A DNA stretch of 64,000 nt from Alphaproteobacteria bacterium (GTDB lineage Bacteria; Pseudomonadota; Alphaproteobacteria; Reyranellales; Reyranellaceae). A program made the position numbers and the translations under genes. Below are positions 8,899 through 62,103 of the stretch, one piece after another. The stretch covers positions 1-64,000 of the forward strand of contig VGCZ01000015.1 of NCBI GenBank assembly GCA_016869975.1, read 5' to 3'. Within the stretch, counting starts at the first letter, position 1. The number at the start of each line of letters is the position of its first letter. The notes under the pieces were generated by a model. The model was given only the letters and a program-made list of their open reading frames with translations, was not told where the DNA came from and ran no database searches.

Positions 8899-9792
8899 TC
8901 AGCCGGGCAGGGTCGCCGCCAGTCGCTTGGCCTCGGCCACGAGGGCGGCGGTCAGCGGGGTCATCGGCTCCCGGTCCGGGACGATCAGGCCGATGAGCGG
9001 ATCGGGCGTGTCGCTGACAATCGGGATCGCCCGGACCGTCTCCAGCAGGCCCAGCGTCTCGGCGACCTTGGCGGGCATGACGCTGGACCAGCGGCCGGTG
9101 CGGACGTGCGCGGCGAGCACGGTCATGGCGTTCGACTCCAGCGTCGGCGCCGGCTCGCAGCCCGCCGCGCGCAGCAGGCGGTCGATGATGCGGCGGCCCT
9201 GCATGTCGGGCGTCAGCAGGCACAGCGGTGTCTGGCCGACCTCGCGCCAGCCGACCTGCTCGCGATCGGCCAGCGGGCTTTCCGGCGTGGTCAGCAGCAC
9301 GTAGTGCTCGCGGTAGAGCGGCACGACCCGCACACGGCCGACCGGCTCGTTGTCGACGTAGCTGATTCCGGCGTCGATCTCGAGATTCTCGAGCTGCGAG
9401 AGGATCTCGACCGAGGTGCGCGACAGCACGGTGAACGACACGTCGGGATGGCGGGCGCGGAACGGTGTGGTCAACGAGGCGACCATGGCCAGGGTCGTCG
9501 GGATCGCGGCAATACGGAGGTGGCCGGCCAGGCCTTCGCGCAAGGTGCGGATTTCCGAGCGCATGGCGCGGGCGTCGCCGACGATGCGCCGCGCCCATTC
9601 CAGCACCCGCTCGCCCTCGGGCGTGAAGCCGATGAAGCGCGAACCGCGTTGGACCAGCAGCACGCCCAGCGTCTCCTCGAGCTGCTTGATCGCCGCCGAG
9701 AAGGTCGGCTGCGTCACACCGCTGGCCTCGGCGGCGTGGCCGAAATGCCGTTCGCGCGCCAGCGCGATGAGGAATTCCAGCTTGTCGATCAT
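8899..9792 (-). CDS. LysR-family transcriptional regulator (likely regulator of the fds operon)
   Basis: This 297-residue protein has the LysR winged helix-turn-helix at residues 4-60 (FGHAAEASGVTQPTFSAAI) followed by a periplasmic-binding-protein-like effector domain. The ATG at 9792 overlaps the stop of the amidase upstream by four bases and matches the normal LysR start MIDKLEF; an upstream in-frame ATG would lie inside the amidase gene. Regulators called FdsR occupy a similar position beside other fds operons. I infer control of fdsG-fdsD through the dyad at 8869-8887, perhaps with formate as effector. Confidence 0.92.
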   Translation of the reverse strand: MIDKLEFLIALARERHFGHAAEASGVTQPTFSAAIKQLEETLGVLLVQRGSRFIGFTPEGERVLEWARRIVGDARAMRSEIRTLREGLAGHLRIAAIPTTLAMVASLTTPFRARHPDVSFTVLSRTSVEILSQLENLEIDAGISYVDNEPVGRVRVVPLYREHYVLLTTPESPLADREQVGWREVGQTPLCLLTPDMQGRRIIDRLLRAAGCEPAPTLESNAMTVLAAHVRTGRWSSVMPAKVAETLGLLETVRAIPIVSDTPDPLIGLIVPDREPMTPLTAALVAEAKRLAATLPG

Positions 9793-11776: not shown

Positions 11777-12388
11777 ATGAAGCTGCATACGTCGATCGGC
11801 CCCAATCCCGCGGTCGTGGCCATGTTCATGAAGGAGAAGGGCATCGAGCTGCCGTCGGTGCAGGTCGACATCAGGGGCGGCGAGAACCGCAAGGAGGCCT
11901 TCCTGAAGGTCAATCCGTCGGGCCAGAGCCCGGCGCTGGAGCTCGACGATGGCACGGTGATCAGCGAGATCACGGCGATCTGCGAGTATCTCGACGACGT
12001 CAACAAGAGCACGCCATCGCTGATCGGCAACACGCCACAGGAGCGCGCGGTCACGCACATGTGGGTCCGCCGCGTCGACCTCAACATCCTCGAGCCGATG
12101 GCCAACGGCTTCCGCTACAGCGAAGGCCTGAAGATGTTCGAGAGCCGCATGCGCTGCCTGCCCGAGGCGGCCGCCGGCTTGAAGGCCTGCGCCCAGGACA
12201 AGCTGAAATGGCTCGACGGACAGATGGTGGGCAAGACCTGGATCGCCGGCGATCGCTTCACGCTGGCCGACATCATGCTGTTCGTCTTCGTCAACTTCTT
12301 TGCCAAGGTCGGCCAGGCGATCGACCCGTCGCTGAAGAACATCGTCGCCTGGAACGAGCGCGTGAAAGCGCGGCCGAGCGCGGCCTAA
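11777..12388 (+). CDS. Glutathione S-transferase family protein
   Basis: This 203-residue protein has an N-terminal thioredoxin-like domain (KLHTSIGPNPAVVAMFMKE, NPSGQSPALELDDG with cis-Pro, and the ESI-like motif ISEITAICEYLD) and an all-helical C-terminal domain. The start at 11777 follows GAGG. The Ser at position 6-7 may be the glutathione-activating residue, as in beta- and theta-class enzymes. Substrate unknown. A palindromic repeat of family 1 follows its stop after six bases. Confidence 0.88.
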   Translation: MKLHTSIGPNPAVVAMFMKEKGIELPSVQVDIRGGENRKEAFLKVNPSGQSPALELDDGTVISEITAICEYLDDVNKSTPSLIGNTPQERAVTHMWVRRVDLNILEPMANGFRYSEGLKMFESRMRCLPEAAAGLKACAQDKLKWLDGQMVGKTWIAGDRFTLADIMLFVFVNFFAKVGQAIDPSLKNIVAWNERVKARPSAA

Positions 12389-12394
12389 GCTGCC

Positions 12395-12458
12395 TGTCAT
12401 CCCGAGCGTAGCGAGGGATCCAGGCCTCCTAGATTCCTCGCGTGCGCTCGGAATGACA
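12395..12458. repeat. Palindromic repeat, family 1 (degenerate copy)
   Basis: TGTCATCCCGAGCG with the sequence TAGCGAGGGATC forms the left arm and an imperfect inverted copy ending in GAATGACA forms the right arm. The right end contains an ATG that is in frame with the following arfB gene. Confidence 0.85.
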
Positions 12459-12467
12459 GAAACCACA

Positions 12468-15639: not shown

Positions 15640-16365
15640 CTAACGCGATGCGGTCCTGATCTCGACACGTGGCCCATTCAGCCCCGCGACCTCCCGCAGC
15701 AGCTTCGCGCGGATCGATTGGGCGAAGGCGCGGCGGCCATCGGCGACCATGACGAAGGCGCCGGGGCCGCCGATCACGTCGCGCTCGTAGTGGCCGATCA
15801 GGCCCTGGCCGCGCGGGCCGCTCATGCTCTCGTCGACGATCACCAGCGCGTTGATGGTGATGGCGCCGGCGACGGCGGCGTCGCGCGCCTCGTGCGCCGG
15901 GCGCCGGCCGCGCATGTCGGGGCCATCCCCCGACACGTCGATGACGCGACGCGTCGCCTGGTGCGGCGCCGCCGCTATCACGCGGATCGAGTGCTCGATG
16001 GCGTCGCCGATGGCGTTGTAGGTCTGGTGCGAGCGCGGCGCATCGATCAGCGCCTTCGCCAAAGCCTCGGCCGACGTGCGGTCGCGTACCAGCATCCAGG
16101 GCACCACGGTTGCGGCACCCATCGGCGAGCCCCATTCGACGACGGCTATGGCGGTGGCACGATGCTCGCCGTCGGTCATGGCGTCGATGATGCGCGGGTC
16201 GGCGATGGCGTCGGCATAGCCGCGCCGCTGCAGCTCGAATTCGCTCTGGTCGATGCTGCCCGAGGCGTCCATGCACAGCACCAGCAGCAGGTCGACCGCG
16301 GCCGCCTGCGCCGCGCGCGGCACCAGCAGCGCCAAGGGTAGCGCGGTGAGGCTACGGCGCCTCAT
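15640..16365 (-). CDS. DUF1194 secreted von Willebrand factor A-type protein
   Basis: This 241-residue protein has an N-terminal signal peptide of about 21 residues (MRRRSLTALPLALLVP with AQAAA cleavage region) and a VWA fold with the metal-ion-dependent adhesion motif DASGS at Asp33-Ser35-Ser37. The later SGDGPD stretch and the general spacing match DUF1194. The function of the family is not established; it is periplasmic. The ATG has an AGGAGG site, which is part of the neighbouring repeat. It follows the AtzH-like gene after 44 bases. Confidence 0.85.
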   Translation of the reverse strand: MRRRSLTALPLALLVPRAAQAAAVDLLLVLCMDASGSIDQSEFELQRRGYADAIADPRIIDAMTDGEHRATAIAVVEWGSPMGAATVVPWMLVRDRTSAEALAKALIDAPRSHQTYNAIGDAIEHSIRVIAAAPHQATRRVIDVSGDGPDMRGRRPAHEARDAAVAGAITINALVIVDESMSGPRGQGLIGHYERDVIGGPGAFVMVADGRRAFAQSIRAKLLREVAGLNGPRVEIRTASR

Positions 16366-16372
16366 ATGACCT

Positions 16373-16400
16373 CCTTCTCCCCGCCTTCGCGGAGAGAAGG
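16373..16400. repeat. Imperfect family 2 palindrome at the start of the VWA gene
   Basis: CTTCTCC with CGC pairs imperfectly with GCGG plus AGAGAAG. On the minus strand its purine arm runs into the GGAGAAGGAGG that serves as the ribosome-binding site of the 15640-16365 gene. Confidence 0.5.
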
Positions 16401-16409
16401 AAGATGCGC

Positions 16410-16811
16410 TCACCATGGCCGTTCGCTCACGACCGAGACGTGGGCGGCGATCACCTTCCAGCCGACATCGGGGAAGCGTACCCAGGTCTGGCTCTGGCGG
16501 CCGATCTGCTCCTTGCCGCGCACCTTGAATTCGAGATTCACCGTGGCGATGTCGCGGCCCAGGGTGAGGATCTCCAGCCGGATGCGCTTTTCCTTGAAGC
16601 CGGGCCCCGGCGGTCGCGCGACGCGATGGGCGTGGATCTCGTCGAAGCCGTAGCCGTTCTCGTGCAGTGCGTAACGGATGGTGCGCGGGCTGTTCCAGAA
16701 CGTGGCGTCGAGCACATCGACGTTCTTGTCGATCAGCGCCTGCTCGTAGCGCTCGAACAGCGCGCTGACTTCGGCTACGACTTCGGGGATATTCTCTCTC
16801 AGATCGGTCAT
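16410..16811 (-). CDS. AtzH-like protein (DUF3225, SnoaL-like fold)
   Basis: This 133-residue protein has the family sequence IPEVVAEVSALFERYEQAL and RFPDVGWKVIAAHVS. AtzH is described as a 1,3-dicarboxyurea amidohydrolase in cyanuric acid breakdown, but homologues occur widely with amidases of unrelated substrate. It overlaps the upstream amidase by four bases (ATGA), so the two proteins are coupled in translation and probably in function. Confidence 0.85.
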   Translation of the reverse strand: MTDLRENIPEVVAEVSALFERYEQALIDKNVDVLDATFWNSPRTIRYALHENGYGFDEIHAHRVARPPGPGFKEKRIRLEILTLGRDIATVNLEFKVRGKEQIGRQSQTWVRFPDVGWKVIAAHVSVVSERPW

Positions 16812-29570: not shown

Positions 29571-29692
29571 GGCGGTGTCCCTCAGTCCATATGAACGGGC
29601 GTTTAGTCTGACGCGATAAGACTTGGCCCGCGGTCACCGTGTCAATCGGCAAGGACCGCAGTGCGACGCTTCGTTGGAGCGTCAATCGTCTC

Positions 29693-29756
29693 TGTCATCC
29701 CGAGCGCAGCGAGGGATCTAGGCGGTTCGGGATCCCTCGCTGCGCTCTGGATGACA
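29693..29756. repeat. Palindromic repeat, family 1
   Basis: TGTCATCCCGAGCGCAGCGA begins the left arm and TGCGCTCTGGATGACA ends the right arm; GGATC marks the centre. It lies between the LLM gene and the ThDP enzyme gene on the minus strand. Confidence 0.88.
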
Positions 29757-29767
29757 GGAGACGCCAA

Positions 29768-46089: not shown

Positions 46090-47199
46090 TCAGCGCAGCA
46101 CCGTGACGGTCTTGCGCTTGATGAGCTCGAAATCGATCGGCGCGCCGATTCCCGGGCCGGTCGGCGCGTGCACGAAACCGTCCTTGTCAGGGTCGATGTC
46201 GGGGTTCAGCCCGTACTTCTGCGCGCCGGATGGCAGCAGTACCTCGAAGAACTCGGTGTTGCGGATCGCCATGGCGACATGCAGCTGGGCGAAGTTGTTG
46301 TGCGAGTTGCCGCCGTGGTGGATCTCGTAGGTCATGCGGAAGGCCTCGGCGAGATGCGCCGTCTTCATGAGCGTCGTGATGCCGCCCTTCACCGCGATGT
46401 CGCCGCGCAGATAGTCGGTGGCGCGCTCGACGATCCACGGCGCGTAGCTCTCCAGGCCGCTGATCGGATACTCGGTGGCGAGGATCGGGATCTTCAGCAG
46501 CTGCTTGAGCTTGACGTAGCCGTAGAGGTCCTGGTCGTGCAGCGGGTCTTCGTACCAGTGGAAACCCAGCTCCTCGACCGCCTTGCCCACGCGCAGCGCC
46601 TCGGGGAAGGCGTAGCTCCAGGTCGAATCGAGCATGATGGTGTAGTCGTCGCCGACCGCGCGGCGCACCGCCTCGCAGACCTTGATGTCCTCGCGCCAGC
46701 GGGTCGGCGGATGGATCTTGTAGGCCGCCCAGCCGCCCGCCTTGTATTGCTGCGCCTCGGCGGCGTAGGCCTCCACCGAACTCAGCACGGCGGAGCTCGC
46801 GTAGGCCGGGATCTTGGTCCTGTACGTGCCGAGCAGGCGATGGACAGGCTGGTTCGCCGCCTTGCCGGCGATGTCCCACAGCGCCACGTCGCAGGCGCCG
46901 ATGCAGCGCACGGTCGACGCGCGCACACGCCGCCACAGATCCTGATTCAGCCGCTCGCGATCGAGCGGATCCTGGCCCATCAGCATCGGCTTGAGGTGGC
47001 GGATCAGGCCCGGCCCGTCGGTCGAGGCCGGGTTCATCGCCGAGCCGAGGAAGGCGTGGCCCGTGACGCCCTGGTCGGTGATCACGCTCAGCAGCCCAAG
47101 GTCGCTGCTACCCGCCGAGCGCGCCGAATGGCCGCCATAGGTGGTCGCCGGGATGTCGTCCCAGGCGAACAGCGTCAAGGTGACGTCGGTGATCTTCAT
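46090..47199 (-). CDS. Enolase-superfamily enzyme (mandelate racemase/muconate lactonising enzyme type)
   Basis: This 369-residue protein has a capping domain at both ends and a (beta/alpha)7-beta barrel. The Mg ligands are Asp in MLDSTWSY, Glu in WYEDPL and Glu in LATEYPIS; Lys in AAYKIHPP and His in EIHHGGNS are the likely base/acid residues. The Lys-x-Lys of mandelate racemase is replaced, so it is probably a sugar-acid dehydratase type of unknown substrate. It is divergent from the RAYT element. Confidence 0.9.
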   Translation of the reverse strand: MKITDVTLTLFAWDDIPATTYGGHSARSAGSSDLGLLSVITDQGVTGHAFLGSAMNPASTDGPGLIRHLKPMLMGQDPLDRERLNQDLWRRVRASTVRCIGACDVALWDIAGKAANQPVHRLLGTYRTKIPAYASSAVLSSVEAYAAEAQQYKAGGWAAYKIHPPTRWREDIKVCEAVRRAVGDDYTIMLDSTWSYAFPEALRVGKAVEELGFHWYEDPLHDQDLYGYVKLKQLLKIPILATEYPISGLESYAPWIVERATDYLRGDIAVKGGITTLMKTAHLAEAFRMTYEIHHGGNSHNNFAQLHVAMAIRNTEFFEVLLPSGAQKYGLNPDIDPDKDGFVHAPTGPGIGAPIDFELIKRKTVTVLR

Positions 47200-47335
47200 G
47201 GTTCCCTCCCGCGATCCGAGCAGCCTAGCCGCCCGTGCCCCGACGCGGAACGGCCGGCCACGCCGACCTGCTATTCGCCGGACGAGGGCGCTCGCGGCCC
47301 CTTCGACCGGCGACGGCGGCCTTCGACGACGCCAT

Positions 47336-47374
47336 AACGCAAGCCTGACACCATGCTGGTGTCAGGCTTGCGTT
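47336..47374. repeat. REP-type hairpin left of the RAYT gene
   Basis: AACGCAAGCCTGACACC-ATGCT-GGTGTCAGGCTTGCGTT is a perfect 17-base inverted repeat with a five-base loop. Confidence 0.9.
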
Positions 47375-47418
47375 CTCACGTTGTTTGAAGGAGGATGGTG
47401 GCGTCCGGAGGATCCGTG

Positions 47419-48393
47419 GTGCCCCGCAAGCCCCGCCTGCATGTCGATGGCGCGATCTACCATGTGACGCTGCGCGGCGACGCCGGGCGGCCGATCTTCG
47501 CCGACGACGCCGACCGGTCGCGCTGGGAGGGGCTGCTCGCCGAGGGCGTGGCGCGCCACGGCCACCGGGTGTTGGCCTATTGCTGGATGGGCGACCATGT
47601 GCATCTGTGCCTGCGCGTCGCCGAGGCGCCGCTGTCGCGCATCATGCAGCAGCTCGTCTCGCGCTACGCCCGTGCCTTCAACCGCCGGCACGGCCGCGTC
47701 GGCCATGTCTTCCAGGGACGCTTCCGGGCGATGCTGGTCGGCGACGATGCCTATCGCCTGGGCCTCCTGCGCTACATCCACCGCGATCCCGTGGCGGCCG
47801 GGCTGGTGCGCGACCCGCGCCGGTATCGCTGGTCCAGCCATGGCGCGCTCTGCGGCGCGGCGCGGTCGCCGGCGTGGCTGGACCACACCGGGACGCTTGC
47901 GCTGTTCGCGCGCGACGCGAAGCTGGCGCGGCGGCGGCTGCATGCCTTCGTGATGGGGGCGGCCGGCGGGCGGGCGGCGGTCGACGAGTCCGCGATTTGG
48001 GCCGAGATCGAGGCGGCGATCGCCTCGCCCTCGGTTGCGACGCTTGGCAAGCCGCCGCGCGGCACGCGGCGCCAGGGCGCGCGACGAGAGCTGGCGCGCC
48101 CGCCCAGATTGGCGGCGGTGATCGACGCCGCGGCGCGGCTGGCGGGCGTCGAGCGGCGCGCGCTAGTTGGTCCGACGCGGGCGCGGGCGGCGTCGCGGGC
48201 GCGCGGCATCGCCGGGCTGCTGGCCCAGGCGACGGGTGCGGCCTCGCTGTCGGCGCTGGCGCGCGCCACCGGGCGCGATCCCGGCTCGATCAGCCGGGCA
48301 GTCGAGGCGGCGCGTCGTCAGGCGGCGACCGATGGCGGCCTGGCGCGGCGGTTGGCGGCGGCGCGCCGGGCACTGATGCAGAAAACGCGATAA
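47419..48393 (+). CDS. REP-associated tyrosine transposase (RAYT, Y1/HUH type)
   Basis: The 324-residue protein has the RAYT domain: PRKPRLHVDGAIYHVTLRG at the start, the His-x-His metal motif in WMGDHVHLCL and the catalytic Tyr in SRYARAFNRRHGR, followed by RYIHRDPVAAGLV. A C-terminal extension of about 150 Ala/Arg-rich residues ends with a helix-turn-helix-like segment (LARATGRDPGSISRAVE). I chose GTG 47419 because GGAGG lies seven bases upstream and it matches the family N-terminus; ATG 47395 is adjacent to its site. The TAA stop is provided by the REP copy at 48390-48407. Confidence 0.85.
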   Translation: MPRKPRLHVDGAIYHVTLRGDAGRPIFADDADRSRWEGLLAEGVARHGHRVLAYCWMGDHVHLCLRVAEAPLSRIMQQLVSRYARAFNRRHGRVGHVFQGRFRAMLVGDDAYRLGLLRYIHRDPVAAGLVRDPRRYRWSSHGALCGAARSPAWLDHTGTLALFARDAKLARRRLHAFVMGAAGGRAAVDESAIWAEIEAAIASPSVATLGKPPRGTRRQGARRELARPPRLAAVIDAAARLAGVERRALVGPTRARAASRARGIAGLLAQATGAASLSALARATGRDPGSISRAVEAARRQAATDGGLARRLAAARRALMQKTR

Positions 48394-48407
48394 CGCAAGC
48401 CTGACAC
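48390..48407. repeat. Right-hand REP copy, overlapping the RAYT stop
   Basis: The 18 bases are identical to 47334-47351. The TAA at 48391-48393 ends the transposase gene. The sequence lies 18 bases upstream of the next start codon. Confidence 0.9.
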
Positions 48408-48425
48408 TGCGGGTCCAGAGTTCGT

Positions 48426-49565
48426 ATGAAGATCACCGACATCGTCTGTCATGTACTGCAGAGCAAGGTCGAGAGGCCGTTCGTCTCGGCGCGCGGCTGG
48501 GTGTATGCGACGCGCTCCTCCTGCGTGGTCGAGATCACGACCGACGCGGGCCTCACCGGCTGGGGCGAGTGCTACGGCCCTTCGGCGGTCGCCAAGGCGT
48601 TCATCGAGACGCAGTATCGCGCGCGCCTGATCGGGCGCGATCCGTTCGACGTCGAGGTGATCTGGGAGGACCTCTACAACCGCATCAAGGATTACGGCAC
48701 GACTGGCATGGCGATCTCGGCCATGTCGGGCATCGACATCGCGCTCTGGGACATCATGGGCCGCGCGGTGAACAAGCCGGTGCACAAGCTCATCGGCGGT
48801 GCCTACCGCAACTCGGTGATTCCCTACGCCACCGGCCTGTACTTCATCGACATGGACCGGCTGGTCGAGGAAGCGGTCGAGGAGGCGCTGGAATTCAAGG
48901 CGATGGGCTTCCGCGCCATCAAGATGAAGATCGGCCTGGGCGATCTGCAGCGCGACGCCGCCCGAGTTGCCGCCGTCCGGGAGGCGATCGGCCCCGAGAT
49001 CAAGCTGGCGGTCGACGCCAACCACTGCTTCTCCGTCCCCAACGCCATCAAGCTCGGCCGCATGCTGGAGGAGCATGATATCCTCTGGTTCGAGGAGCCG
49101 ATCAGCCCCGAGGATCATGACGGTTACGTTGAGGTAACCAGATCCCTCGACATGGCCGTGGCTGGCGGCGAGAACGACTTCACCCGCTGGGGCTTCCGCG
49201 ACATCATCGCGTCCAAGGCGATGGACATCGTGCAGCCCGACCTCTGCGCCGCCGGCGGTTTCTCGGAGTGTCGCAAAATAGCCGCCCTCGCCTCCGCCTT
49301 CGGCGTCGAGTGTGTGCCGCACGCCTGGGGCTCGGCGATCGGCCTGGCTGCCACGGTGCAGTTCCTCGCCGCCCTGCCCGATCAGCCGCCGGCCTTCCGG
49401 CCGATGCCGCCGATGCTGGAGTTCGAGCAGACGCCCAATCCGCTGCGCGACCATCTCGCCACCGTGCCGATCGAGCAGAAGGGCGGCGCCGTGGCGGTGC
49501 CGGACGGGCCGGGCCTGGGCATCGAGATCGATCGCGCGGTGCTGGCGAAGTACAAGGTGGCGTGA
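48426..49565 (+). CDS. Enolase-superfamily enzyme (mandelate racemase subgroup)
   Basis: This 379-residue protein has Lys-x-Lys in AIKMKIG, metal ligands Asp in AVDANHCF, Glu in WFEEPIS and Glu in AGGENDFT, and His in PHAWGSAIG with Asp in QPDLCAAGG. This set fits the mandelate racemase subgroup, whose members racemise or dehydrate acid sugars. It is the first gene of a run of six on the plus strand. The binding site is weak and lies beside the REP copy. Confidence 0.92.
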   Translation: MKITDIVCHVLQSKVERPFVSARGWVYATRSSCVVEITTDAGLTGWGECYGPSAVAKAFIETQYRARLIGRDPFDVEVIWEDLYNRIKDYGTTGMAISAMSGIDIALWDIMGRAVNKPVHKLIGGAYRNSVIPYATGLYFIDMDRLVEEAVEEALEFKAMGFRAIKMKIGLGDLQRDAARVAAVREAIGPEIKLAVDANHCFSVPNAIKLGRMLEEHDILWFEEPISPEDHDGYVEVTRSLDMAVAGGENDFTRWGFRDIIASKAMDIVQPDLCAAGGFSECRKIAALASAFGVECVPHAWGSAIGLAATVQFLAALPDQPPAFRPMPPMLEFEQTPNPLRDHLATVPIEQKGGAVAVPDGPGLGIEIDRAVLAKYKVA

Positions 49566-52674: not shown

Positions 52675-53085
52675 ATGCGTCGCATCGCGTTCGCCCTCGC
52701 CGCCGCGCTGTTCATACTCGGCGACTCCTCACCCGTGCGGGCCTACAGCGACGCCGAGATCAGTCAGTTCCTGATGAGCAGCCCGTGGTGCCATTTCCGC
52801 TACAACTCTGCCGGCGGCTCGACGACGACACGGCGAGGCCAATTCGGCGGCAACGGCGTTCTGACCGTGCGCAGCGGCCGCGAGGTCTACTCCTCAGGCC
52901 CGGGCGGCACCTATTCCGGCGGCTCGCAGGGCGGCGAGCAGTATTACTGGCGGGTGCAGAACGCGATGCTGCTGCTGTCGCAGGACGGCGTGAACTGGCA
53001 GCCCTACAGGCTCGACGCCTATCGCAATTCCAGCGGCTATCCGATCCTCGTCGTCGATGGCGACGAGTACTCGATGTGCAATTGA
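52675..53085 (+). CDS. Small secreted protein of unknown function
   Basis: The 136-residue product has a signal peptide (MRRIAFALAAALFILG, cut near VRA-Y) and a mature part rich in Gly, Ser, Tyr and Trp. It has one Cys near the N-terminus (SSPWCHF) and one at the C-terminus (YSMCN), which could form a disulfide. The central motif NSAGGSTTTRRGQF and the beta-rich pattern suggest a small lipocalin-like or sheet protein, not proven. AGGAGG precedes the start. Confidence 0.75.
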   Translation: MRRIAFALAAALFILGDSSPVRAYSDAEISQFLMSSPWCHFRYNSAGGSTTTRRGQFGGNGVLTVRSGREVYSSGPGGTYSGGSQGGEQYYWRVQNAMLLLSQDGVNWQPYRLDAYRNSSGYPILVVDGDEYSMCN

Positions 53086-53093
53086 AGCTCCGT

Positions 53094-53157
53094 TGTCATC
53101 CCGACGTAGCGAGGGATCTAGGCTGACCCGAGATCCCTCGCTACGCTCGGGATGACA
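53094..53157. repeat. Palindromic repeat, family 1
   Basis: TGTCATCCCGACGTAGCGAG begins the left arm and CTCGCTACGCTCGGGATGAC ends the right arm. It lies between convergent genes and may end transcription. Confidence 0.88.
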
Positions 53158-53165
53158 GGCGACGA

Positions 53166-56737: not shown

Positions 56738-56773
56738 CGCAGGGCGCGTTGATCTCCGGTGATGCGTGCGCAT

Positions 56774-56803
56774 CCACCTTCCCCCGCTGGCGGGGGAAGG
56801 TGG
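56774..56803. repeat. Palindrome, family 2 (left member of a pair)
   Basis: CCACCTTCCCCCGC and GCGGGGGAAGGTGG with a TG loop; followed by a GCGCGAAGCGC mini-hairpin. It forms one composite unit with the copy at 56901-56926. Confidence 0.85.
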
Positions 56804-56900
56804 CGCGAAGCGCCGGATCGGGGTGGTTCTCGCGGTCAGGCGTGGTCTTCGAAAGACATTGCCTTCGTCTTCGACAGCCACCTCCATCCGCCCTTCGGGC

Positions 56901-56926
56901 ACCTTCCCCCGCGAGCGGGGGAAGGT
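56901..56926. repeat. Palindrome, family 2 (right member of a pair), at the LptD start
   Basis: ACCTTCCCCCGC and GCGGGGGAAGGT with a GA loop. GGGGGAAGG in the right arm is nine bases upstream of the proposed GTG start of the lptD-like gene. Confidence 0.85.
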
Positions 56927-56934
56927 ATTGGTGG

Positions 56935-59109
56935 GTGGCGCTTCTTCTATCGCTGCTCGCCTGGTGTGGCGCGGCGCAGGCGCAGACGGCGGCGACGCGG
57001 GGTGGTGGCGAGACCTTGGTGCTGGCCAACGAGGTGATCCGCGAGGCGGGCGGCCGGCGTCTGATCGCCCGCGGCATGGTCGAGGTGCGGCGTGGCGCGC
57101 GCGCGATCATGGCCGACGAGGTCACCTACGATTCGAACACCGATCGCCTGCGCGCCGCCGGCAATGTCGCGGTGGTCGACGATAACGGCGAGGTGGTGTT
57201 CTTTTCGGAGGTCGATGCCGACGCCGCCTTCACCGACGGCGCCGGGCGCGATATCCGCATGGTGCTGCGGCGCAACTGGCGGGTACGTGCCAGCGATGGC
57301 CAGTTAAGTACCAAGGACGGTCGCCAGTTCGCGTTGCGGCACGCCCAGGCGTCGCCCTGCGACGAATGCGCGAAGGACCCCGATCGCCCGCCGGTGTGGC
57401 GCATTACGGCGCGCCGCGTCGTGGTCGACGAGGCGTCGCAGGATTTCATCTACAACAACGCGGCGATGGAGATCTTCGGCGTTCCGGTGGCCTACACGCC
57501 GTATTTCACGCACCCCGCGCCCGACGTGCGCCGGCGCACCGGGCTGGTTTCGTTCAACGTCGGCCGCAGCTCGGTGCGCGGCTTCTACGGCGAGCCGCAG
57601 TATTTCATCGCGCTCGACGACAGCGCCGACCTGTCGCTGCGCCCGCGTCTCTACTTCCAACGGCCGACACGGCCGTTGTTCGACGTTGAGGCGCGCAAGC
57701 GCGGCGACACGTTCGATGTCTCGCTGCGACCGCGCTTCGCCTATGACGGAGGTCGCCTGCGCTACCTCCTTCGCGGCGCGCTGAATTGGGATATCGACCA
57801 GAATTGGCGCGCAGTGGCCGACGCCGATTATTCCGGAGACCGCGCCTTCCACGAGGATTTCGGCATCGCCCGCCAACCCTTCGCCCGTTCGGTGGCGGCC
57901 GTCGAGCGCTTCGCCGCGCAATCCTTCGTGCAGTTCCGCGCCGCGCACTATCAGGACCTCCATCTCGACAACTTCGCCGGCCATGTGCCGACCGCCGGCT
58001 TCCACGCGCTGTCGCATCAGCGCATTCCGGTACCCGAATTGGGCGGCACCTTGGAGTTGCGCACGCTCCTGCGCGAGACACTGCGCGAGCGCGGGCCCTC
58101 GACCAGCAGCGCGATCCAGATCGTGGAGTGGCAGCGCCGCGCGCTGATCGGCGGTGGCCAGGTCGTGGGCTTCGGCGCGCAGCTGATGGGCCGGCTGGAC
58201 CGCACCACGTCGGGGCCGGTAGATATCGTCGATCCGTTGTCCAACGGCCTGCCGACCACCGCGCGCGGCTGGGCCTCGAGCGACGCGATCGGCTGGCTCG
58301 AATGGTCCTATCCCTTCGTCGCACCGGTCGGTGAGCGCGGCTCGTTGGTGGTAGAGCCCAAGGCGATGCTGATCGGCTCGGGCCGGATCGCCGGCGCGCG
58401 GCCGATGCTCAACGAGGACTCGCGCAGCCTGGAGATGGACTTCAGCTCGATCTTCTCGATTAGCCGCCATACGGGTTTCGACCGACGCGAGAGCGGGCTG
58501 CGCGTGGTCTATGGGCTGCGTTCGACGCTGGGCTTCGCCTCGGGCGAGCAGCTGACGGTCGAGGCCGGTCAGTTACGCTATCTCGTCGGTGACGACAATT
58601 TCGCCGGCCGCCTGCGCGCGCCCGGCGACAAGGCGTCGGACTGGGTGCTCGGCGTGCGCGCCGATATCGGCTATCCGCTGTCGCTCGACATGTATGGCCG
58701 CTTCGATGCGCGCGACTTCGGCGTGGTGCAGGCGTACGTTGCGCCCACCCTGCGACATCAGCTCTTTGGCCGCGAGGCGAGCCTGACGGTGGGCTACGCG
58801 CATGAGGGCCCGGCCAGCCCGCTGGGCCGCTATCCCGGCGCGCCGCCACCACGCGACTCCGTCATCGCGCTGGCGCGCCTGCCGATCGGCGAACATTGGA
58901 CTCTCGACGGCGGCGTTCGTTACGACGCCACCCGCCGCAACTTCACCGACTACCAAGCCGGCATCACCTACGAGGATGAGTGCTTCGTCGTCCGCGTGCT
59001 GGGCCAGCGCGGCCTCTATTTCGCCGGCATCAGCACCGAAGCTGCCGCGCGCGTCCTCGTGCAGGTGACGTTCAAGCAGCTCACGACCCTGGGCTTCCAG
59101 AACAACTGA
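56935..59109 (+). CDS. lptD: LptD-like outer membrane LPS-assembly protein
   Basis: The 724-residue protein starts with a short signal peptide (MALLLSLLAWCGAAQAQ), then an OstA/LptA-like beta-jellyroll domain to about residue 180, then the LptD beta-barrel to the C-terminus. Cysteines in ASPCDECAKDP lie in the linker position expected for the disulfides, and one more Cys (DECFVV) is near the end. It acts as the outer membrane pore of LPS transport. The GTG 56935 is inferred from the signal peptide; the start is not settled. The usual surA-pdxA neighbours are absent, so a second, canonical lptD may exist. Confidence 0.82.
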   Translation: MALLLSLLAWCGAAQAQTAATRGGGETLVLANEVIREAGGRRLIARGMVEVRRGARAIMADEVTYDSNTDRLRAAGNVAVVDDNGEVVFFSEVDADAAFTDGAGRDIRMVLRRNWRVRASDGQLSTKDGRQFALRHAQASPCDECAKDPDRPPVWRITARRVVVDEASQDFIYNNAAMEIFGVPVAYTPYFTHPAPDVRRRTGLVSFNVGRSSVRGFYGEPQYFIALDDSADLSLRPRLYFQRPTRPLFDVEARKRGDTFDVSLRPRFAYDGGRLRYLLRGALNWDIDQNWRAVADADYSGDRAFHEDFGIARQPFARSVAAVERFAAQSFVQFRAAHYQDLHLDNFAGHVPTAGFHALSHQRIPVPELGGTLELRTLLRETLRERGPSTSSAIQIVEWQRRALIGGGQVVGFGAQLMGRLDRTTSGPVDIVDPLSNGLPTTARGWASSDAIGWLEWSYPFVAPVGERGSLVVEPKAMLIGSGRIAGARPMLNEDSRSLEMDFSSIFSISRHTGFDRRESGLRVVYGLRSTLGFASGEQLTVEAGQLRYLVGDDNFAGRLRAPGDKASDWVLGVRADIGYPLSLDMYGRFDARDFGVVQAYVAPTLRHQLFGREASLTVGYAHEGPASPLGRYPGAPPPRDSVIALARLPIGEHWTLDGGVRYDATRRNFTDYQAGITYEDECFVVRVLGQRGLYFAGISTEAAARVLVQVTFKQLTTLGFQNN

Positions 59110-61547: not shown

Positions 61548-62044
61548 TGCCCGTCCATGTCGTGATGGGCGTGTCGGGCTGCGGCAAGTCGACGGTCGGC
61601 ATGCTGATCGCCGGCAAGCTGAGGGCGCGCTACGCCGAGGGAGACTCGTTTCATCCGCCGGAGAACGTCGCGAAGATGCGCGGCGGCCAGCCGCTCGACG
61701 ATGACGACCGCGCGCCCTGGCTGTCGGCGATGGCCCAGGCGATCCGCGACTGGAACGCCAAGGGCGAGACCGTCGTGCTCGCCTGCTCGGCGTTGAAGCG
61801 CCGCTATCGCGATGTGCTGCGCGGCGGCGGCGATGTGCGTTTCATCCATCTCGCCGGCGACAAGGCGGCGATCGCCGCGCGGCTGGCAGCGCGCACCGGC
61901 CACTACATGCCGACGACCCTGCTCGACAGCCAGTTCGCCACGCTCGAGCCGCCCGGCGACGACGAGGCGATCACCGTGAGCATTGAAGGCGCGCCGGCGG
62001 AGATCGCGCAGCGCGCCATCGACGCTCTGTCATCCCGAGCGTAG
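61547..62044 (+). CDS. gntK: Gluconokinase
   Basis: This 165-residue kinase has the P-loop GVSGCGKST, GDSFHPPENVAKM and the lid/substrate region CSALKRRYRDVLR. It phosphorylates gluconate, giving the substrate of the upstream gnd product. The two genes overlap by one base and form a gluconate-to-pentose-phosphate unit. Its last four codons (SSRA) and TAG come from a family 1 palindrome, so the natural C-terminus may have been changed. Confidence 0.95.
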   Translation: MPVHVVMGVSGCGKSTVGMLIAGKLRARYAEGDSFHPPENVAKMRGGQPLDDDDRAPWLSAMAQAIRDWNAKGETVVLACSALKRRYRDVLRGGGDVRFIHLAGDKAAIAARLAARTGHYMPTTLLDSQFATLEPPGDDEAITVSIEGAPAEIAQRAIDALSSRA

Positions 62045-62095
62045 CGAGGGGATCTAGAGAAACTGCCTGGTTCCCTCGCTGCGCTCGGGATGACA
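62028..62095. repeat. Palindromic repeat, family 1, carrying the gntK stop
   Basis: TGTCATCCCGAGCGTAGCGA and CGCTGCGCTCGGGATGACA form the arms. The TAG at 62042-62044 ends gluconokinase. Confidence 0.9.
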
Positions 62096-62103
62096 GTCAT
62101 CAT

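Follow-up and report, generated by a model that had tools for sequence, protein, structure and literature searches.

A probable TIRtron in Reyranellaceae: a long-resident Y1 transposase gene and its dispersed 28-nucleotide terminal inverted repeats

Introduction

Tyrosine transposases with terminal inverted repeats (TIRs), many of which carry the motif GGGGWSAS, are named TIRYTs and their elements TIRtrons (Di Nocera et al. 2013, PMC3733652). It has been suggested that the TIRYTs are TnpA_Y1 subclass 2.1, a group of long proteins that have Bac_DnaA_C, HTH_23 or HTH_28 domains and are without REPs (Quentin et al. 2018, PMC6006769). RAYTs have been characterized biochemically; for the equally widespread subclass 2.1, the literature searched offers descriptions by bioinformatics alone and no consensus on a target DNA.

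Here we analysed a window, the whole stretch of 64,000 nucleotides from contig VGCZ01000015.1 (assembly GCA_016869975.1), of a Reyranellaceae genome that is called G000 below. An initial annotation of this DNA had described a REP-RAYT unit that by itself separates two enolase-superfamily genes. Our analysis indicates that the element is probably a TIRtron: one TIRYT (TnpA_Y1 subclass 2.1, with a Bac_DnaA_C-like C-terminal domain) with 28-nt TIRs, long resident at its site in the genus, in which an HUH domain would act on the outer part of each TIR and a DnaA-like domain on inner boxes, and whose TIRs would also serve as promoter part and gene end. It is a well-supported addition to a little-studied known class, for which the label REP-RAYT is a mislabel.

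Results

Repeat units around the transposase gene

The features of the locus, in window coordinates, are as follows.

46090..47199, minus strand: enolase-superfamily gene 1 (MLE1), the divergent left neighbour, conserved in the family
47325..47352, plus strand: outer TIR unit of the left dimer, GACGACGCCATAACGCAAGCCTGACACC, with 3 mismatches to the genus consensus
47358..47385, minus strand: inner left TIR unit, adjoining the gene and pairing with 47336-47352 as a perfect 17-bp hairpin
47368..47373, plus strand: candidate -35, TTGCGT, inside the left TIR, its position predicted for the window copy from the family pattern
47391..47396, plus strand: weak candidate -10, GAGGAT (3/6 to TATAAT), predicted, after a 17-bp spacer
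47419..48393, plus strand: TIRYT, a Y1/HUH transposase of 324 aa with a GTG start
48381..48408, plus strand: right TIR unit, holding the TAA stop of the transposase (48391-48393)
48426..49565, plus strand: enolase-superfamily gene 2 (MLE2), the right neighbour

As first annotated, the 18-base sequence ATAACGCAAGCCTGACAC is found at 47334-47351 and again, identical, at 48390-48407, on either side of the transposase gene. Its left copy extends into a perfect 17-bp inverted repeat, AACGCAAGCCTGACACC-ATGCT-GGTGTCAGGCTTGCGTT (47336-47374), with a DNA fold of -23.4 kcal/mol (z -9.2; 0 shuffles equally stable), and its right copy contains the TAA stop of the Y1 transposase; the following ATG, at 48426, comes 18 bases after the end of this copy. 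The 18-base identity stands, but the repeat unit extends over 28 nt, with the consensus AACAACGCAATAACGCAAGCCTGACACC from copies in three genomes (G000, G001 and G003), and consists of two AACGCAA boxes with 1 base between them, followed by GCCTGACACC. Read from left to right, the locus shows unit(+), unit(-), gene and unit(+), which puts the gene between units in inverted orientation. A lone unit is predicted to be unfolded as DNA (MFE 0 kcal/mol), the hairpin being formed by two inverted units. The inner left unit has 3 mismatches to the consensus, and its second inner box is damaged. Within the window, a 16-mer core has 3 exact occurrences and, with up to 3 mismatches, 4 matches against 0.45 expected.

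The window also contains repeats of other kinds. A dispersed palindrome of about 70 bp, GTCATCCCGAGCG.AGCGAGGGATC ... GATCCCTCGC..CGCTCGGGATGAC, is unrelated to the TIRs and is present at least 4 times in the window, and many copies also occur in the genomes of the genus; small G+C-rich hairpins of the types CTTCTCCCCGC...GCGGAGAGAAG and CCTTCCCCCGC...GCGGGGGAAGG, with matches in relatives, lie at 16365-16410 and 56770-56935.

12385-12465, 29685-29765, 53085-53165 and 62018-62100: copies of the ~70-bp palindromic repeat

The transposase and its class

The conserved start of the protein is the GTG at 47419 and not the ATG at 47395. Its N-terminus belongs to Y1_Tnp (Pfam PF01797, 5.7e-12), and its C-terminus resembles Bac_DnaA_C (3.7e-5) at 24 bits, under that profile's own curated cut-off of 31.5; the NCBIfam equivalog for REP_Tyr_transpos (NF047646) scores 66.3 bits, below its cut-off of 80. 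A search with the single protein sequence against PDB and PHROGs gave no match. In an AlphaFold2 model built with 52 homologs (mean pLDDT 86.7), the first half has 4er8 (TnpA_REP) as its best fold match (TMt 0.75) and also matches the TnpA of IS608 and ISDra2. The C-terminal part of the model resembles the DNA-binding domain of Mycobacterium tuberculosis DnaA bound to a DnaA box (3pvp; TMt 0.80-0.82, E ~0.008), and as modelled this domain is DnaA-domain-IV-like. The Pfam profile of the homologs (HTH_23, HTH_28 and Bac_DnaA_C) matches the description of subclass 2.1 (PMC6006769), and the combination of a DnaA_C-type C-terminal domain with inverted repeats places the element in the TIRYT class, that is, TnpA_Y1 subclass 2.1.

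Dispersal of the repeats with the gene

The initial annotation had made its reading depend on further repeat copies in the genome and on empty sites in relatives. Pattern searches for a 15-mer core (up to 1 mismatch) gave 12 matches in G000 and none for the reversed control. For the three genus members that have the gene, the counts of this core are 12, 24 and 24; in 38 other genomes of the family, which lack the gene, they are 0-2, and those of the reversed control 0-1. The gene itself is single copy in G000, G003 and G001 (the last matches a Reyranellaceae MAG, contig JALHMM010000030, which assigns the window to this family), and no match comparable to the transposase gene was found in the other family genomes searched. 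In the three genomes, the dispersed copies occur singly, as inverted dimers of both arrangements, and in clusters. The inverted repeats of the G003 ortholog match at 30/30 bases; the TIRYT of G001 is broken across two contig ends (L072 1 and L073 1, C30:1 and C24:1), with about 50 codons missing between them.

Two of the dispersed sites deserve separate mention. The match on contig C62, one of the 12 in G000, is without an inner box, lies in seemingly coding sequence and is probably due to chance. On C37, a TIR common to G000 and G001 (L078 4773, G000 C37; L203 4469, G001 C26) lies at the 3' end of a 584-aa frame, which by its sequence may resemble an adenylate/guanylate cyclase and which in G000 ends ...NNATTQA*, the TGA stop being supplied by the TIR. 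Dispersed sites other than those on C37 and C49 could be aligned on one side only.

A canonical REPtron, that is, a RAYT with GTAG-type REP or REPIN repeats, would account for several of these observations, as TnpA_REP is the best fold match of the HUH-Y1 protein, the repeat occurs in monomers, inverted dimers and clusters, and a single gene correlates with the repeats. To this extent the earlier REP-RAYT label was justified: the transposase is related to IS200/IS605 and the repeat is dispersed. The lone unit, however, forms no hairpin, its consensus has no GTAG-type foot, the NCBIfam score of 66 falls short of 80, and the protein has the traits of subclass 2.1, namely a large DnaA_C-like domain in a group reported without REPs (PMC6006769). 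We therefore consider a REPtron unlikely. The unit itself was rejected as a canonical REP, since its MFE is 0 kcal/mol and AACAACGCAATAACGCAAGCCTGACACC has no 5' GT[AG]G tetranucleotide.

Alternatively, the protein might act in the host as a regulator or DNA-repair nuclease for which the repeats are mere operators, and something else would have spread the repeats; the protein's DNA-binding C-terminal domain, the promoter-proximal TIR and the stable site would suit such a role. We regard this as rather improbable, because the full HUH-Y catalytic set is kept across phyla and the repeats are numerous only in genomes with the gene.

Conservation and selection

The HUH motif (H60-V61-H62) and the catalytic Y119 are present in all but a few of 102 homologs, across phyla. 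The window's protein carries the substitutions N59D and N123D at positions where 98/102 and 100/102 homologs, respectively, have asparagine. N119 of Escherichia coli TnpA_REP has been named essential in vivo (Quentin et al. 2018, PMC6006769), and we read position 123 (Y+4) as its counterpart. The dN/dS is 0.26-0.43 for the transposase and 0.07-0.13 for MLE1; the transposase is thus under purifying selection, weaker than that on MLE1.

Both substitutions raise the question of whether the transposase and TIRs of the window are losing function in this lineage. A decaying relic would also be consistent with the gene-flanking TIRs, which have 3-4 mismatches in G000 against 0-1 in G001 and G003, and with about half the genomic copy number (12 versus 24). 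Nevertheless, the frame is intact, dN/dS is 0.29-0.43, the excess of changes over the G001 transposase (21 versus 16) is not significant, and aspartate is also able to bind metal. Decay is accordingly a substantial possibility for the window's copy, albeit not the one that we favour.

History of the locus

Empty arrangements of the kind that the initial annotation had called for exist in two other genera, where MLE1 and MLE2 lie side by side, divergently oriented, with gaps of 181 bp (G004) and 199 bp (G013). A base-precise empty site was not obtained in the genomes compared, and transposition itself is presumed. Within the genus, with gene names taken from translations, the order in G001 is MLE1 - TIRYT - TIR - SGNH/GDSL-like gene - MLE2 - MLE3 (over two contigs), and that in G003 is the same except that MLE2 is absent. 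G002 has the order MLE1 - secDF-like gene - substrate-binding protein - SGNH/GDSL-like gene - MLE2, and the TIRYT was not found in its assembly, which is 67% complete.

The locus is therefore not a simple insertion, and the view that the unit alone separates the two enolase genes was too simple. Because G001 is the genome closest to G000 by DNA identity, loss in G000 of the SGNH/GDSL-like gene before MLE2 is the most economical and, from the gene orders, the most likely reading. Such a loss would have brought the right TIR to its present 18 bases from MLE2, a distance that would then most likely be the product of a deletion and not the sign of a precise insertion into an enolase promoter. The 18 bases before MLE2 were also considered as a remnant of the end of the lost SGNH/GDSL gene; the alignment was suggestive, with P of 0.10-0.69, and the candidate was rejected. 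G003 has lost MLE2, apparently through a deletion from the start of this gene to that of MLE3, the two starts being near-identical (ATGAAGATCAC; L071 (G003) 9320-9400 compared with L073 (G001) 1582-2724). The two losses adjoining the right TIR, MLE2 in G003 and the SGNH/GDSL-like gene in G000, would be independent.

These data bear on the idea of an ordinary mobile insertion sequence that arrived recently between two enolase genes. Such an arrival would agree with the 181-bp and 199-bp gaps without the unit in G004 and G013 and with the lack of a comparable match in the other family genomes searched. It is nonetheless very improbable, given that there is a single copy per genome at the same locus in G000, G001 and G003, that these copies differ by about 15-18% in DNA, that dN/dS is below 0.45, and that no target duplication or clean junction was seen. 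A second position, on G000 C49, was compared across the orthologous gap: G000 holds a single TIR there and G001 has five matching units, and in G003 none was seen; this intergenic DNA is too diverged for a precise empty site and contains another repeat family.

The right repeat and the stop codon

We compared about 125 relatives overall, in a first sample of 99 homologs with usable flanks and a second sample of 27. Inverted repeats scoring at least 13 (threshold 13; shuffled maximum 11) flank 67/99 homologs of the first sample, and in 43 of these 67 the right repeat overlaps the stop codon; in the second sample, an inverted repeat was found in 19/27, with stop overlap in 16/19. The stop also lies within the right TIR of the G003 and G001 orthologs. 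The consensus unit has stops in two frames (TAA and TGA) in the sense direction and none in antisense. What is new here is the frequency of the overlap; the overlap itself is already marked for some members in PMC3733652.

A predicted promoter in the left repeat

With the G of the left-TIR GTCA as the reference point for offsets, TTG occurs at offset 8 in 25/45 left TIRs, and similarity to TATAAT has a sharp peak at offset 31 (z 5.0-5.9). No such peak was seen at offset 31 when the right TIR was read inward (z 0.8). In the second sample the TATAAT-like peak is at offset 30 (z 4.9); the offset had been chosen post hoc on the first sample, with which the second agrees only within one base. These positions are a lead to a predicted promoter, with the left TIR placed as the -35 box and a -10-like box 16-17 bp on. 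In 24/45 the start codon lies 42-46 nt from GTCA, near the expected transcription start, and only 2/24 of these short-spaced starts have a Shine-Dalgarno-like motif, so that a near-leaderless mRNA is predicted in many members. The window's genus has a longer leader with a GGAGG-type site, and the pattern of a start codon near the transcription start is inapplicable there; its candidate -10 (GAGGAT) is weak, and the G001 ortholog has GAGAAT at that position. Searching the literature for promoter features or leaderless transcripts in elements of this kind gave no relevant result.

Tandem inner boxes

The 57 distinct TIRs are self-similar at lag 7 (z 8.2) and at lag 8 (z 3.1), as in CGGGATA-CGGGATA (L112) and TTGCCTT-TTGCCTT (L093). 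In the second sample, 16 distinct sequences that are mostly of one family, the peak is at lag 8 (z 5.0). Since this sample is 1 nt off in both signals (lag 8, offset 30), the boxes and the spacing are not fixed. The boxes agree within one TIR and vary between clades, and from this arrangement we read them as two putative binding boxes for the DnaA-like domain. In a Mantel analysis, inner-TIR distance correlated with C-terminal-domain distance when N-terminal distance was held (partial r 0.21, permutation P 0.0005) but not with N-terminal distance when C-terminal distance was held (r -0.03, P 0.66), although this could mean only that the faster C-terminal domain tracks phylogeny better.

Discussion

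If the element is a TIRtron, as we think probable, a mechanism can be proposed in which the HUH-Y domain would nick and rejoin single-stranded DNA at the TIRs through their conserved outer part (CCTGACACC here and CCTGACCCC elsewhere), and the DnaA-domain-IV-like domain would bind the two tandem inner boxes (here AACGCAA-T-AACGCAA). Together, these activities could spread TIR monomers and dimers over the genome. The transposase gene would take the -35 region of its promoter from the left TIR, and it has its stop codon in the right one. The repeats may accordingly act both as substrate and as regulatory or coding boundary, and binding at the TIRs could autorepress the gene. The data establish the anatomy, the class, the gene-linked spread of the TIRs, the age of the insertion, the purifying selection and the family-wide statistics on stop overlap, tandem boxes and -10-like position; cleavage, the binding roles, autorepression and mobility are inferred. 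For the family as a whole, it is conceivable, at somewhat less than an even chance, that TIRYT ends are composite, with an outer cleavage motif and two clade-specific 7-8-nt boxes read by the DnaA-domain-IV-like domain, the left end acting as -35 (often with a predicted nearly leaderless mRNA) and the right end as stop, in which case the identity of the element, its autoregulation and the coding boundary would evolve in concert.

This case ties a subclass 2.1 gene to dispersed repeats that are present or absent together with it within one genus, and it yields a concrete target model, an outer motif for the HUH domain and tandem inner boxes for the DnaA-like domain. If the model is true, the substrate specificity of a large class of domesticated transposases becomes directly testable, and a short mobile repeat can double as promoter part and gene end.

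Among the known systems, the TnpA of IS200/IS605 (IS608, ISDra2) shares the catalytic fold and motifs of the present protein; multiple full copies with subterminal hairpins were not found here, where the gene is single copy, its ends are inverted repeats that are unfolded when alone, and no TnpB adjoins. RAYTs and REPtrons (TnpA_REP, PDB 4ER8) are alike in the HUH-Y1 domain and in a single-copy gene flanked by and linked to dispersed extragenic repeats, but the GTAG foot and the single-unit hairpin are absent here and a large DNA-binding domain is added. Subclass 2.1 (PMC6006769) agrees in the long protein, the HTH C-terminal domain (Bac_DnaA_C, HTH_23, HTH_28) and the lack of REPs; that study reported no REP-like sequences near the genes and left the identity with TIRYTs for confirmation, whereas we find TIRs in 67/99 homologs. 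The TIRYTs and TIRtrons (PMC3733652) likewise have a RAYT-related Y1 transposase, long flanking inverted repeats, repeats scattered as singles, dimers and clusters, and a 3' overlap of repeat and gene in some members. The text consulted gives no account of tandem inner boxes, of -35/-10 placement or of the frequency of stop overlap, and the present element is a Reyranellaceae member. Its outer motif, GGTGTCAG, is 1 base off GGGGWSAS, and the nearest homolog outside the genus (L082), from an acidobacterial MAG with 44% identity (alignment A2), has GGGGTCAG for this motif and GGGGTCAGGCTTGCGTTGTTGCGT, which is almost the TIR of the window.
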